Source: Halorubrum lipolyticum DSM 21995
GTDB taxonomy: Archaea; Halobacteriota; Halobacteria; Halobacteriales; Haloferacaceae
Direction of reading: 5' to 3'
DNA length: 42,227 nucleotides
Assembly (NCBI RefSeq): GCF_000337375.1
Contig: NZ_AOJG01000008.1
Span: 1-42,227 of the forward strand
Shown here: one piece after another, positions 1-34,582 of the stretch
Layout of the letters: each line of letters starts with the position of its first letter
Numbering within the stretch: position 1 is the first letter of the stretch
The notes under the pieces: model-generated
Seen by the model: only the letters and a program-made list of their open reading frames with translations
Database searches by the model: none
Told to the model about the DNA's origin: nothing
Program-made: the position numbers and the translations under genes

Positions 1-165
1 CGGAAGCACCGCAATGAAGGAGCGAACGAAGTGAGCGACCGAGTGAGGAGCGCAGCGAGCGTGCGCCCGCCTCGTCGGCTGGGGCTTTGGAGGTCTTTAC
101 CGTAGAGTCGCCGATCGGTTATAAACAGCCGACAGCAACTCCACTCGATCGCTTATAAAGGACTT
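1..165 (-). ncRNA. Left copy of a dispersed noncoding element, candidate small RNA with its own promoter
   Basis: Read on the minus strand, this stretch matches the plus strand at about 33510-33680. A 42-base block is identical (33-74 here, 33609-33650 there), and similarity continues outward on both sides. Two TATA-like boxes near 118-124 and 151-158 point leftwards, so a transcript could start near base 92 and run off the window. The element lies directly downstream of the bactofilin gene in the same orientation, just as the other copy lies downstream of glutamate dehydrogenase. Nothing here looks coding. That it is an RNA gene rather than a REP-like repeat is inference. Confidence 0.5.
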
Positions 166-168
166 CAG

Positions 169-1551
169 CTACGTCGCTTCAGCGTCGGCGTCGAGTTCCT
201 CGGGATCTGGCTCATCCGTATCTGAACCCTTCGCTGCCGAGTCCTCGGCGGCGGACTCGTCGTCAGCACTCTCACCGTCGGACTCGGCGTCGTCGGGTGC
301 GTCGTCCCCGTCGGCCGCGTCGGCCGCGTCGTCTCCGTCTGCTTCGGTCACCGTTTCCGAGTCCGCCCGTTCGTCGTCCGCCGCTTCTGAGTCCGACGTA
401 TCGCCGTCCGTGGGGTCGTCGCCGTCAGACGCTTCGTCCTCGTCGGACAGTTCGTCTGCGTCCATCTCGCCTCCGTTTTCGTCCTCGTCCCTGCTTTCGT
501 CCTCGCCTCCGTTTTCGTCCTCGTCCCTGCTTTCGTCCTCGTCCCTGCTTTCGTCCTCGTCCCTGCTTTCGTCCTCGTCCCTGCTTTCGTCCTCGCCTCC
601 GTTTTCGTCCTCGCCTCCGTTTTCGTCCTCGCCTCCGCTTTCGTCCTCGCCTCCGCTTTCGTCGACGGCATCGCTCTCGGCCTCGCTTTCCCCCTCTTCA
701 CCTTCGTCGTCGCCCGTCTCCTGAACGAGCTTCATCTCGCCGCGGGCGCGGAGGGTCCCGTCGATCTCGGCGCCGTCGTGAACGACGAGGTCGCCGGCGG
801 AGACGTCGCCGAGGACCCGCGCACCGGCCTCGACGGTGACGGTTCCGCCCCGGGTGGTGACGTCGCCGTGGATCGTCGTGTCCGCGCCGACCGTGATTTC
901 CTCGCGGGCGCGGAGGGAGCCGAACACCTCGTTGCGCTCGCCGACGCGGATCGACTCCGCGCGGAGGTTACCGTGGAGCCGGCAGTCGTCCCCGACGGTC
1001 GCGGGCGTCGAGACGCGCCACGCGTCGTCGGAGATCTCGGCACCGCGCGGGATCAGGAGGGGATCGCGCACCTCCTCGCCGTCGGCGAGCGCCTCCGCGA
1101 GGTCGTCGGCCGCGTCGGTCTCGCCGAGCCGCAGGAGCTGGGAGAGGACGATGAAGTAGAAGACGAGGGTGGGGACGGGGTTCCGGATGACGATCCAGCC
1201 GTTCGCCTCGAACCCCTCCTCGATCGTCACGTCGTCGCCGATGTCGAGATCGCCGGAGACCATCAGTCGGCCGGTGACCGTGACTCGCTCGCCGAGGTAC
1301 GCGTCCTCGCCGACGAGGACGTTGCCGTCGACGGAGCACCACGTGTCGAGCCGGCAGTCGCCCTCGGCCTCGATGTCGTTCTCGACGCTCACGCGCTCGC
1401 CCAGCGCGACGTTGCGGCCGCGGAGCCCGAACTCCACGGTCGACTGCCCGCCGACGAGCACGTCGCCGTCGGTGACGAGGTCGTGCTCTTCGACGGTCGT
1501 CCCGGACGGGACGGCGAGCTCATCTATCGGACCGCCTCCCCTCAGCGACAC
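169..1551 (-). CDS. Bactofilin-like polymer-forming protein with acidic repeat tail
   Basis: Encodes 460 residues. Residues 1-120 and about 170-275 are short beta-helix-like turns (repeats of the kind G-x-V-x-V-G-x-x-x), as in bactofilins and other polymer-forming cytoskeletal proteins. A hydrophobic segment at about 127-142 splits the two halves and may contact the membrane. The last 180 residues are almost only D, E, S and G and include eleven tandem hexapeptides (DESGGE, DENGGE or DESRDE). The start is GTG at 1551: a TATA box at 1573-1582 sits about 26 bases upstream, which fits a leaderless mRNA. Role in cell shape or envelope scaffolding is inferred from the family. The acidic tail is unusual in length. 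Confidence 0.75.
   Translation of the reverse strand: MSLRGGGPIDELAVPSGTTVEEHDLVTDGDVLVGGQSTVEFGLRGRNVALGERVSVENDIEAEGDCRLDTWCSVDGNVLVGEDAYLGERVTVTGRLMVSGDLDIGDDVTIEEGFEANGWIVIRNPVPTLVFYFIVLSQLLRLGETDAADDLAEALADGEEVRDPLLIPRGAEISDDAWRVSTPATVGDDCRLHGNLRAESIRVGERNEVFGSLRAREEITVGADTTIHGDVTTRGGTVTVEAGARVLGDVSAGDLVVHDGAEIDGTLRARGEMKLVQETGDDEGEEGESEAESDAVDESGGEDESGGEDENGGEDENGGEDESRDEDESRDEDESRDEDESRDEDENGGEDESRDEDENGGEMDADELSDEDEASDGDDPTDGDTSDSEAADDERADSETVTEADGDDAADAADGDDAPDDAESDGESADDESAAEDSAAKGSDTDEPDPEELDADAEAT
466..663 (-). repeat. Eleven 18-base tandem repeats inside the bactofilin gene
   Basis: Exactly eleven in-frame 18-base units encode DESGGE x2, DENGGE x2, DESRDE x4, DENGGE, DESRDE, DENGGE. 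Each unit is one of three variants that differ at codons 3-5, so the array looks like recent unit duplication plus exchange between variants. Copy number probably differs between strains. Confidence 0.9.
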
Positions 1552-9530: not shown

Positions 9531-10260
9531 CATCCTCCCCGCGCTGAAGCGCGAGGATTCCCACGGCACCGCACCGCTGGGTTGGGATAGTGTGGTTTAC
9601 GACGTTACCTGTTCTTGAGGTGCGAACGCACCAGTCTCCTTGTCAAACAGGAACGTCGATGGCTGTGCCAACCAGCCGTTACTCCTATCACCGCCATCCG
9701 TGGCGGGACTTGGAGATACTTTCTGCCGAATATTCTCAGCGCCGTTCACATCTGCGTTCGCTACTGTACCGCACTCATCGCAGACATACAGTCCGCGTTC
9801 AACACGGTTGGCTTCATGCTTCCGGCCACAGCACGAACACGATTTCGAGGTATCCCGCTCAGACACGTGCTCGACCGTGATACCTTCCATCTCGGCTTTG
9901 TATTCGAGTAGGTCGCTGAACCGGTCGAACGCCCACGAGTGCAGGTCAAGATTACCGTGCTTGCCCCAGTCCTTCGACTCGCTGTTCTCCTCATCCTCAC
10001 GGATGCCGGAGAGATCGCCCACCACGATAGTTCCAACACCTTCCTCAACACACCGTTCAACAATATGCTTGGAGAGAGTGTGGAAGTAGTGGGTGCGGCG
10101 GGCCGACTTCTTCTGGTTCAGCCTGGTAGCCTGCTCGGAGTCCGAGTCGTCACACCAAGCGATTCGCTTGCTGAAGTAGTAGTCGTCCTGTTTCAAGCTC
10201 ATGCGGTTCAGCGGATTGAGTCGTGGTACGGAGATAGCTGAAGATGTTGAATATACAGTC
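9531..10260 (-). mobile_element. Truncated IS200/IS605-type element with tnpB remnant
   Basis: The right end is a hairpin at 9536-9556 (cctc-ccc-gcgc-tgaa-gcgc-gagg), typical of haloarchaeal IS200/IS605 and IS1341-like elements. The element carries only the 3' half of tnpB and no tnpA. The left end is not recognisable; 10260 is where the TnpB-like frame fades out. It sits inside the serine recombinase remnant. Confidence 0.6.
9597..10202 (-). pseudogene. tnpB: TnpB (OrfB), C-terminal half
   Basis: The frame encodes 201 residues: GVGTIVVGDLSGIRED, HSWAFDRFSDLLEYKAEM, a zinc ribbon (CSCCGR, then CDECG) and the last acidic catalytic block ADVNGAENIRQKV. Full TnpB proteins have about 400 residues; the N-terminal wedge domain and first RuvC aspartate are missing here. 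Open frame continues upstream of the ATG (…SVPRLNPLNRM), which supports truncation rather than a short gene. TnpB is an RNA-guided nuclease in complete elements; this copy should be inactive. The sequence downstream (9540-9596), where a guide RNA would end, is retained. Confidence 0.8.
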
Positions 10261-20594: not shown

Positions 20595-20769
20595 TGGGGC
20601 CGGAGGGATTTGAACCCCCGATCGACTGATATCTCCGGTGCGCCTCGGAACTCCAGAGGGTCGTCAACACGACCGATGATCAGTCGGCCGCTCGGTATAT
20701 CAGTCTGGAGTGTCGTCCCGGGCGCAAGCCTCTGGAGTCAGTCGCCATGCCTGGCTTGGCCACAGCCCC
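20595..20769 (-). tRNA. trnW: tRNA-Trp (CCA) with a 101-base intron
   Basis: On the minus strand the gene starts GGGGCTGTGGCC and ends CCGGCCCC plus discriminator A; CCA is not encoded. The acceptor stem pairs fully (one G-T), the D stem is GCCA/TGGC, the anticodon stem ACTGA/TCAGT, and the loop CTCCAGA with anticodon CCA. The T arm is CGGGGGTTCAAATCCC. The coding parts are split after position 37 by an intron at 20631-20731. Only one copy is in the window. The 3' end faces the accessory island, so it is a plausible integration target. Confidence 0.9.
20631..20731 (-). ncRNA. tRNA-Trp intron with two 2'-O-methylation guides
   Basis: In haloarchaea the tRNA-Trp intron is known to act as a C/D guide RNA for Cm34 and Um39. 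Here the sequence shows two antisense segments. tctggagt (20650-20657) pairs with the exon stretch ACTCCAGA that holds C34. gactgatat (20697-20705) pairs with ATATCAGTC, which spans the second splice junction and holds U39. CTGA boxes are present near the second guide; the C boxes are degenerate. The intron is thus needed for modification as well as removed by splicing. Confidence 0.75.
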
Positions 20770-31930: not shown

Positions 31931-32147
31931 CGGCGCACCCCCGGCGCGCGTCCGAGTGTCATGCGCCGTGGTTGTCGGCGCCGACGTATAAGTCCGGGCG
32001 AAATCGACGGGGGTGACCGCTGTCGATCTGTGGTCGTCGACCCGCGGTCGCCGCACCGTCAGCTCGCCACCCGAATGTGGCTGTCAGTCACTACCGCAGG
32101 CGATTATTGCCGAAACCGATATCACCCGGGGTCGAGTCGCCCCGATC

Positions 32148-33455
32148 ATGACGGACGACCCGTTCGAGAACATGCTCGCACAGATGGACCGCGCGGAGGA
32201 GTACGCCGACGTTGATCACGGCGTCTTCGAGCGGCTCAAACACCCGGAGCGCACCCTCAAAGTCACGCTTCCGGTCGAGTTGGACTCCGGCGAAGTCGAG
32301 GTGTTCGAGGGGTACCGCTGCCAGTTTGACAGTGCCCGCGGTCCTTTTAAAGGCGGCGTCAGGTTCCACCCGTCGGTCACCCAGCGCGAAGTCGAGGCGC
32401 TCGCCGGGTGGATGACGTGGAAGACGGCGCTGGTCGACCTCCCGTACGGCGGCGCGAAGGGCGGGGTCATCTGCGAGCCGAAAGAGCTCACGCAGAACGA
32501 CCTCGAGAGCCTCACCCGGCGGTACACCGAGGGAATCCGCCGGATGATCGGCCCCGAGACCGACGTGCCCGCGCCGGACATGAACACGAACCCGCAGACG
32601 ATGGCGTGGATGATGGACACCTACTCGATGTACGAGGGGCACTCCGTCCCGCAGGTCGTCACCGGGAAGCCCCTGGAGATCGGCGGGACCCCCGGCCGTG
32701 TCGCCGCGACCGGTCGCGGCGTCTCCATCGTCACCGAGCGCCTCTTCGACTACCTCGACCGCGACCTCTCGAACGCCACCGTGGCGATCCAGGGGTTCGG
32801 GAACGTCGGCTCGAACGCGGCCCGACTCCTCGACGAGGCGGGCGCGCGGATCGTCGCCACCTCCGACGTGACCGGTGCCGCCTACGACCCCGACGGGCTC
32901 GACGTGGCGGCGCTCGGCGCCCACGTCGACGCCGGCGGCCTGATCGAGGAGTACGTGGCCGGCGAGTTCCGGGCCACGCCCGAGAACCGGCGTACAGACG
33001 GGGGAAGCCGCTGGGACGATCCCGACCGGATCACGAACGGGGAGCTGTTGACGCTCGACGTCGACGTGCTGATCCCCGCCGCGGTCGAGGGCGTCATCAC
33101 CGCGGACAACGTCGACGACCTCCGGGCCGCCGCGATCGTCGAGGCGGCCAACGGGCCGACGACGGTCGCCGCCGACGAGGTGCTCACGGAGCGGGACGTC
33201 CAGGTCGTCCCCGACATCCTCGCCAACGCCGGCGGCGTCATCGTCTCGTACCTCGAGTGGGTTCAGAACGCCCAGGAGTTCTCGTGGCCGCTGGAGACGG
33301 TCAACGCCGAACTGGAGCGCCGCATCGGCACGGCGTTCGACCAGACGATCGACCAGTACGACGAAAAGGGGCTTCCGGACCTCCGGACGGCCGCGTACAC
33401 CCTCGCGCTCGAACGCACCGCGAGCGCCCACGAGTACCGCGGGCTGTTCCCGTGA
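32148..33455 (+). CDS. gdh: Glutamate dehydrogenase (Glu/Leu/Phe/Val family)
   Basis: Encodes 435 residues from ATG 32148. Substrate and catalytic regions are clear: FKGGVRFHPSV, WKTALVDLPYGGAKGG with the catalytic lysine, and PAPDMNTNPQTMAWMMDTYS. The Rossmann motif is VAIQGFGNVGSNAARLL. The end has ANAGGVIVSYLEWVQN. Length and motifs fit hexameric glutamate dehydrogenases that interconvert glutamate with 2-oxoglutarate and ammonia. Coenzyme choice cannot be told with certainty. Its 3' side carries the repeated noncoding element. Confidence 0.93.
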   Translation: MTDDPFENMLAQMDRAEEYADVDHGVFERLKHPERTLKVTLPVELDSGEVEVFEGYRCQFDSARGPFKGGVRFHPSVTQREVEALAGWMTWKTALVDLPYGGAKGGVICEPKELTQNDLESLTRRYTEGIRRMIGPETDVPAPDMNTNPQTMAWMMDTYSMYEGHSVPQVVTGKPLEIGGTPGRVAATGRGVSIVTERLFDYLDRDLSNATVAIQGFGNVGSNAARLLDEAGARIVATSDVTGAAYDPDGLDVAALGAHVDAGGLIEEYVAGEFRATPENRRTDGGSRWDDPDRITNGELLTLDVDVLIPAAVEGVITADNVDDLRAAAIVEAANGPTTVAADEVLTERDVQVVPDILANAGGVIVSYLEWVQNAQEFSWPLETVNAELERRIGTAFDQTIDQYDEKGLPDLRTAAYTLALERTASAHEYRGLFP

Positions 33456-33504
33456 ATCGCGCGCAGCGTCGCTGAGCGGCGAGGAATAGTGGGAGTGAGT
33501 ATAC

Positions 33505-33715
33505 CGAGTTGATTGAGTGATTGTTTATAAATGACCGTGTAGTGTTGCTGTCGGTTATTTATAAACGATCGACCGGTATGCAGAGAAGACTTCCAAAGCC
33601 CCAGCCGTCGAGGCGGGCGCACGCTCGCTGCGCTCCTCACTCGGTCGCTCCCGCTCCCTCGTTCCGGTGCTTGCGTCGCCTGTGCCCGCCTCGACGGCTG
33701 CCCCTTTTAGTCCCA
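33505..33715 (+). ncRNA. Right copy of the dispersed noncoding element, candidate small RNA
   Basis: Two TATA-like boxes (gtttataaat near 33523, atttataaac near 33556) are 33-35 bases apart, as in the left copy. From about 33587 a transcript would begin with acttccaaagccccag. It contains a perfect 17-base inverted repeat (33602-33618 with 33684-33700), which makes a long stem around a 65-base loop, and then ccccttttag at 33701-33710, a T-run terminator. The loop holds the 42-base block (33609 on) shared with the left copy. RNA expression is inference. Confidence 0.5.
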
Positions 33716-33895
33716 CCCGCCCGCACAGTACCGCAGCCTCACACCTCCCCAGCCTCGTCGGTCGCCCTCCGCGTTGCTCCGGGCGACCGACTCCCTCGCG
33801 CGATGCTCCTCGCGGGCTGGCGGCCCGCTCGGAGGCACGCGCCACCGCATCGTTCATTTATATGCGATCGTCGCCGTCGCCCAGAGACGGTTTCA
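33716..33895. repeat. Second structured noncoding block after the repeat element
   Basis: A GC-rich stretch with short inverted repeats, for instance tcggtcgccc with gggcgaccga around ccgcgttgct (about 33757-33789), and a Y-rich run of ctcgcgcgatgctcctcgcg. Such sequences are, in my memory, spread through haloarchaeal genomes. It lies between the candidate RNA and the convergent DUF2071 gene. I do not see a gene. Confidence 0.4.
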
Positions 33896-34582
33896 TCAGA
33901 CCGATCGGATCCGGTCCGCGCCCACCTCGACCGGCTCCGCGTAGCGGACGATCGGGTCGCCGTCGGGCCGGTCGAAGCCGTTCGCCTCGAACAGCGTGTT
34001 CGCCCGAACGTCGGCGGTCGCCTCCCGCAGCGTCCACGGCTCGTGAGCGATCTCGCCGCGGTAGAGGCGCTTCCCGTCGGCGTAAAAGCGGTAGTTCTCG
34101 ACGAGGAAGGCGTCGAGCGACCCCGACTCGGCGGCGAACGCACCGCCGGTCGGGCCGTAGCTCGCGTCGAATCGCGCGCGTGGAACCCCGCGGTGCGTCC
34201 GGCGGCTCCGGAACCGGACGGTCCCGTCGCTCCGGGAGGTCGCGCTCATCGCCGCGCGGTAGTACGGGAGCGCGAACAGCCGTCGCGCGACCGCGACGCC
34301 GAGCCGGTCGTCCGCGTCGAGGTTGTAGAAGTAGACGCCCGGACCGTCGGGTCCCTCGACGTAGGTCCGGAGGTTGAGCTCCGGGAACGAGAGCCCGACG
34401 GGCGTCCCTCGCGGGCGGATGTCGTCCATCACGAAGGCGACGACGCTCAGGTACGCGTCGCCGCCGTGGGTGGCGACTGAGAGCCGGTCGGGCAGCGTCT
34501 CGGCCGCGACGGCGGGATCGACCGGCCAGTGGCAGAACAGCCCGTCGCGCCACGTCATCTCCAGCCAGCGCCGTTCGAGCAT
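33896..34582 (-). CDS. DUF2071 (YqjF-like) protein
   Basis: Encodes 228 residues. It opens with EMTWRDGLFCHWPVDPAVAA, then PDRLSVATHGGDAYLSVVAF, PELNLRTYVEGPDGPGVYFY and ALPYYRAAMS, all typical of the DUF2071/YqjF group. Family members are of unknown biochemical role, with an acetoacetate-decarboxylase-like fold suggested. A TATA-like gggttaactc (34604-34613, minus strand) precedes the start by 26 bases. It is separated by 59 bases from the cation transporter gene. Confidence 0.8.
   Translation of the reverse strand: MLERRWLEMTWRDGLFCHWPVDPAVAAETLPDRLSVATHGGDAYLSVVAFVMDDIRPRGTPVGLSFPELNLRTYVEGPDGPGVYFYNLDADDRLGVAVARRLFALPYYRAAMSATSRSDGTVRFRSRRTHRGVPRARFDASYGPTGGAFAAESGSLDAFLVENYRFYADGKRLYRGEIAHEPWTLREATADVRANTLFEANGFDRPDGDPIVRYAEPVEVGADRIRSV

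Follow-up and report, generated by a model that had tools for sequence, protein, structure and literature searches.

What the structured repeat is that occurs twice in the stretch of Halorubrum lipolyticum DSM 21995 DNA analysed here (42,227 nucleotides; hereafter the window), and whether its hairpins are maintained as RNA or as DNA, is the question raised by this locus. A first-pass annotation, made from the sequence, had read the two copies as members of a dispersed family of small-RNA genes. A search within the window showed that 127 of 159 positions are shared by positions 1-159 (minus strand) and 33524-33675 (plus strand), with an E value of about 1e-37. The 42-base identical core described in that annotation is present in both copies (CGAGGCGGGCGCAC...GGTCGCTC), as are paired TATA-like boxes with a spacing of 34 bases, and the right copy has the 17-base perfect stem ascribed to it (33602-33618 with 33684-33700). 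The T-run also ascribed to it, on the other hand, amounts to just four T residues, at 33705-33708, and TTTG stands there in most other copies. Moreover, the apparent arrangement of inverted copies, one at either end of the window, is fortuitous and follows from the position of a contig break, since the contig begins at base 1 of the window and cuts off the left copy. Several further contig ends also lie within copies of the element, and in four loci (L002, L009, L035, L058) an N within the copy is followed by the same sequence again, indicating assembly joins inside the element; the element breaks genome assemblies. The right copy sits between two genes that converge on it, one encoding a Glu/Leu/Phe/Val-type dehydrogenase (32013-33455, plus strand) and the other a DUF2071 protein (33896-34582, minus strand). 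The left copy follows a bactofilin-like gene (169-1551, minus strand), which itself contains an 18/36-bp tandem repeat (window 466-663; 11 copies of 18).

The match noted previously is part of a larger element, formed by inverted ends, TATA-like boxes and three hairpins with constant C-rich blocks between them. A full Halorubrum copy is about 430-540 bp long: each inverted end is followed inwards by two TATA-like boxes, and between these lies a three-hairpin core, in which the order B1-H1-B2-linker-B3-H2-B4-H3-B5 was fixed among the 100 fetched loci compared. In the right window copy, on the plus strand, AATAGTGGGAGTGAGTATACC, corresponding to the family form GATAGCGGGAGTGGGTATAGC, makes up the left inverted end at 33485-33505, whereas the matching right end is missing. 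The sequence of this copy places TATA-like boxes 1 and 2 at 33524-33531 and 33558-33565, and these are followed by constant block B1, TCCAAAGCCCCAGCCG (33592-33607), by hairpin H1 (33602-33700; the 17-bp perfect outer stem described above and an irregular inner part) and by constant block B2, GGCTGCCCCTTTTAGTCCC (33696-33714), with ACCC after it. Comparison of copies further defined the constant blocks B3, CCTCACACCTCCCCAGCCTCG (33737-33757), B4, TCCCTCGCGCG (33792-33802), and B5, ACGCGCCACCGCA (33837-33849), all on the plus strand; hairpin H2 (33757-33791; arms 33757-33767 and 33781-33791) lies between B3 and B4, and hairpin H3 (33806-33834; CTCC...GGAG plus an inner stem) between B4 and B5. 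A further TATA-like box follows B5, at 33857-33863. The second copy (1-159, minus strand), truncated at the contig end, retains TATA-like boxes at 153-159 and 119-125, B1 at 76-91 and the start of H1.

Several of these features recur at set distances. Most copies conserve a TATA-like box some 37/34/40 bases ahead of CCAAAG (134 of 240 upstream stretches), and another lies 7-9 bases past CCGC, after B5, in most copies (43/73). Tandem units of some 57 bp, each with a TATA-like box and a B1, often stand ahead of B1, and H1 is flanked by CTTT on both strands. The inverted ends are less constant: they were recognised at one or both ends of 25 of 82 copies, including the right window copy, and are absent in recognisable form from the other 57, and their reach varies between copies. 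GATAGCGGGAGTGGGTATAGC lies about 107 bp before B1 and its inverse, where kept, about 80 bp after B5; 19 end pairs with the inverse copy were found, and 17 of these span 294-592 bp. A protein-coding core was considered and rejected: the lengths between blocks are distributed evenly among the three reading frames, and the core is therefore non-coding. The 3-base steps seen between the TATA-like box and B1 are probably due to slippage of GAC repeats and not to a reading frame. Some copies also carry recurrent short hairpins (e.g., GGGACC..GGTCCC or GAGAGC..GCTCTC) inserted in the loops of H1-H3 (L005, L015, L041, L057, L110); these occur in Halorubrum and in other genera and form a family of small palindromes nested within the element.

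A covariance model of the H1 module, built from 22 sequences from several genera, detected 89 copies in the 3.43-Mb Halorubrum genome and matched the right window copy with 102 bits (C8:33595-33714). A search of the genome with the element itself returned scores of matches, and searches with the constant blocks gave counts far above chance: the 16-base B1 occurs 161 times in the genome at up to two mismatches, as opposed to 12 for its mirror image, and B2 occurs 84 times, as opposed to none for its control. The proposal of a dispersed family, as distinct from a simple repeat, was thus borne out by 89 copies with a conserved, covarying structure. Among Halobacteria, the model matched 121 of 145 genomes, representing 50 of 58 genera, and in several genera H1 modules form facing pairs; no match was obtained among about 200 genomes of the other classes of the phylum. 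The named genomes with the same element are mostly Halorubrum. Viral contigs and a phage collection gave no match, and 72,556 plasmids gave six weak or partial ones. No Rfam family was matched above its gathering cut-off, and a literature search returned no description of the element. A sequence that accounts, by a rough estimate, for on the order of 1% of the source genome and is present in most genera of Halobacteria is thus described by no curated RNA family.

The element is mobile: it is absent from close relatives at six gene pairs and reversed at two. With the joined flanks of the right copy as a probe, many genomes of the same genus proved to be empty at this site (22-115 bp) and others to contain the element; the gap between the dehydrogenase and DUF2071 genes is empty (22 bp) in a relative with a 95% identical flank (L161) and holds a reversed element in another (L174). 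At five further loci the site is empty in relatives, and L361 shows one more reversal. The empty-site junctions are too diverged to define a target duplication, and no clean one was established. In related genomes, 745-1043 bp of unrelated sequence replaces the hairpin core between the same outer ends (L343, L344), as if this one site were an exchange point for cargo. As to placement, the ratio of convergent to divergent gaps is 33:6 in the source genome and 44:17 in other Halorubrum, against a background of 85:105; insertion or survival therefore favours promoter-free gaps in this genus. In other genera, 15 gaps are convergent and 27 divergent; copies there often lie between divergent genes in some genera (L379-L398), unlike the convergent placement in Halorubrum.

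The preference for convergent gaps in Halorubrum would also be expected if the element were a bidirectional boundary of the host, which had spread and been retained for the usefulness of a strand-symmetric hairpin that stops or insulates transcription between opposing genes. Consistent with this, neither orientation is clearly preferred beside tandem genes (17 vs 14), the same gap can hold either orientation, CTTT borders H1 on both strands and plasmids and phages are nearly devoid of the element. However, the corresponding gap lacks the element in many relatives, it has no long T-run, and the copies of other genera are not at convergent gaps; we regard a host boundary function as improbable, the more so of the two functional alternatives considered here. 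An intrinsic terminator was rejected, the hairpin lacking a T-run (TTTT in the right window copy, TTTG in most copies).

The hairpins show strong covariation. Across the three-hairpin core of 20 copies, 95.5% of the cells are paired and 28 of 50 pairs show two-sided changes, with 134 two-sided cells as compared to 44 after shuffling and 10-24 with the partner slid. For the H1 module, 356 two-sided cells were counted among Halorubrum copies (100 when shuffled) and 265 among copies of other genera found by the model (74 when shuffled). In H3, the arm pairs exchange together among copies (CTCC/GGAG, CTGT/ACAG, CGGT/ACCG, CACC/GGTG). Thus, the compensatory stem changes that the first-pass annotation had named as support for its RNA genes do exist, but almost without G-U intermediates.

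RNA stems tolerate G-U pairs but not A-C mismatches. This was seen in our control, the acceptor and T stems of 21 tRNAs from the same loci, where 252 pairs included 14 G-U (5.6%) and no A-C (0%). By comparison, the element stems of Halorubrum had 20 G-U (0.9%) and 38 A-C (1.8%) in 2147 cells (Fisher p 5e-6 vs tRNA) and those of other genera 11 G-U and 11 A-C in 1131 cells (Fisher p 0.002 vs tRNA), counts to be read with the small size of the tRNA control, the relatedness of the copies and the fitting of the alignments to the model in mind. The stems are nearly exact Watson-Crick palindromes, without preference for the strand proposed previously. Because G-U is not above A-C, unlike in the tRNAs, the hairpins look preserved as DNA palindromes and not as RNA; the near absence of wobble pairs points to upkeep as DNA, or to use of both strands. 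An early count on pattern-picked copies, with A-C sixfold above G-U (61 vs 10), could have hinted at RNA made from the opposite strand. This asymmetry was set aside as a strand signal: since it is confined mainly to the first four stem positions and vanishes in the model-found copies of other genera, no strand is claimed. Folding energy was also discarded as a strand test, the G-rich strand being the stabler in 43/43 copies and yet the shuffle-corrected z-scores being equal on both strands; these scores do not separate DNA from RNA. Applied with the tRNA yardstick, the count of G-U against A-C can distinguish hairpins maintained at the DNA level from RNA genes in further families of repeats. 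The near lack of wobble intermediates also opens one question to direct test: how does a DNA palindrome stay exact across hundreds of diverged copies?

The small-RNA reading therefore has to be divided: the dispersed family and its structure stand, whereas the RNA signature is missing, G-U not exceeding A-C as it does in tRNA. In its general form, that of dispersed structured non-coding RNA genes, each with its own TATA box and spread by some route in a SINE-like manner, it would account for the TATA-like boxes at fixed distances on both sides of the core, for the many copies with tandem 57-bp units of box plus B1, for the strong covariation and for the non-coding character of the core. The boxes are themselves palindromic, however, and so give no direction, and they are mostly absent from the other-genera copies inspected, which may be facing pairs. 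Together with the rarity of G-U, the equal folding z-scores on the two strands and the lack of an Rfam match, this leaves RNA genes an unlikely explanation, if a slightly better one than a boundary element.

We favour, with some reservation, a non-autonomous mobile DNA element of Halobacteria that is recognised through its DNA folds. The hairpins would act as DNA, extruding as cruciforms or folding as single strands; a recombinase or host protein, at present a candidate only, would recognise the folded hairpins, and template switching or selection would keep both arms exactly complementary. Halorubrum copies would survive mainly where no promoter is broken, in gaps that convergent genes border with their 3' ends. 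On one strand, the constant blocks contain four G-tracts, and two of these are immediately adjacent to the H1 stem. In copies picked without requiring it, the CCCC of B1 is kept in 23/23 and 30/32, and CCC-N-CCC follows B2 in 14/23 and 29/32. The G-rich strand of these blocks (GGGTGGGACT-AAAGGGGC-[H1]-GGGGC) may fold into a quadruplex around the stem. A bolder version, which we consider unlikely, is that across the class the G-strand forms a hairpin-looped quadruplex (GGGYGGGACTNAAAGGGGC-[H1]-GGGGC) in the potassium-rich cytoplasm, that a structure-reading protein mobilises or binds it and that a DNA-level process keeps the palindrome exact. If true, this would be a mobile element defined by DNA shape, and not by sequence or RNA.

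One candidate considered for the mobilising enzyme is a Y1 transposase of the IS200/IS605 type, which would act on hairpins in single-stranded DNA, as for PATE or REP-type elements. The element is hairpin-rich, intergenic and present in many copies, and in the haloarchaeon Haloquadratum both PATEs and IS605-type elements are frequent (PMC3119063). However, no Y1_Tnp gene was detected in the source genome, with its 89 element copies, and in 30 Halorubrum genomes the copy number is uncorrelated with the number of Y1_Tnp genes (rho -0.06, p 0.74); a Y1 transposase is therefore probably not the mobiliser. PATEs also lack inverted ends, which the present element has (PMC3119063). This explanation is largely refuted, and we give it very little credence. 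The source genome yielded no transposase or recombinase whose ends match, and no inverted-end pair there was recognised as enclosing an obvious autonomous transposon; the pairs enclose short segments. The window does contain an IS200/IS605-family remnant, a match to Rfam sot0042 (sense overlapping transcript of IS1341-type TnpB genes; 9536-10202, minus strand) that adjoins the end of an apparent TnpB gene, and no relation of the element to this remnant was seen. A separate Rfam tRNA match (20595-20769, minus strand) spans 175 bases, probably bears an intron and was missed by ARAGORN in default mode.

Comparison with known systems places the element among small mobile DNAs. With the structured RNAs of Rfam it shares strong covariation and constant unpaired blocks, but it matches no family there and its base-pair statistics are unlike those of tRNA. 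REP and BIME sequences are, like the element, chromosomal palindromes that lie between genes and number tens to hundreds of copies; the element is about ten times longer, has several conserved linker blocks and, unlike REPs with a RAYT, has no Y1 (RAYT-type) transposase detected in its source genome. REPs occur in bacteria and archaea (PMC12306157). PATEs, palindrome-associated transposable elements, are described in PMC3119063 as lacking inverted ends, having palindromes near their ends and being tied to IS605-type transposons, and a PATE of 489 bp was reported for Halorubrum lacusprofundi and its virus HRTV-DL1 (PMC10544981). They resemble the element in their palindromes, haloarchaeal hosts and similar length (PMC3119063; PMC10544981), but its inverted ends and the lack of a detected Y1_Tnp in the source genome set it outside their definition, and the phage collection searched with the element gave nothing. 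By the definitions in PMC3119063, the element comes nearest to MITEs or small mobile repeats (SMR), with inverted ends and without a transposase. Those of Haloquadratum are likewise short, transposase-free and present in many copies with inverted ends, and the same paper lists 'SwitchRepeats', which are copies that lie in opposite orientation at one site (PMC3119063). In keeping with a MITE, the element has inverted ends (25/82 copies) and presence/absence polymorphism at orthologous sites; the ends of MITEs, however, also occur on a known transposon, and for this element the source genome showed no such transposon. SMR-A of Haloquadratum is also shorter (about 110 bp, against about 430-540 bp), and the account of MITEs and SMR, in the part available, includes neither a covarying multi-hairpin core nor spread across the class (PMC3119063). 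It is the class-wide, covarying and nearly wobble-free three-hairpin core that distinguishes this element from MITEs and small mobile repeats.
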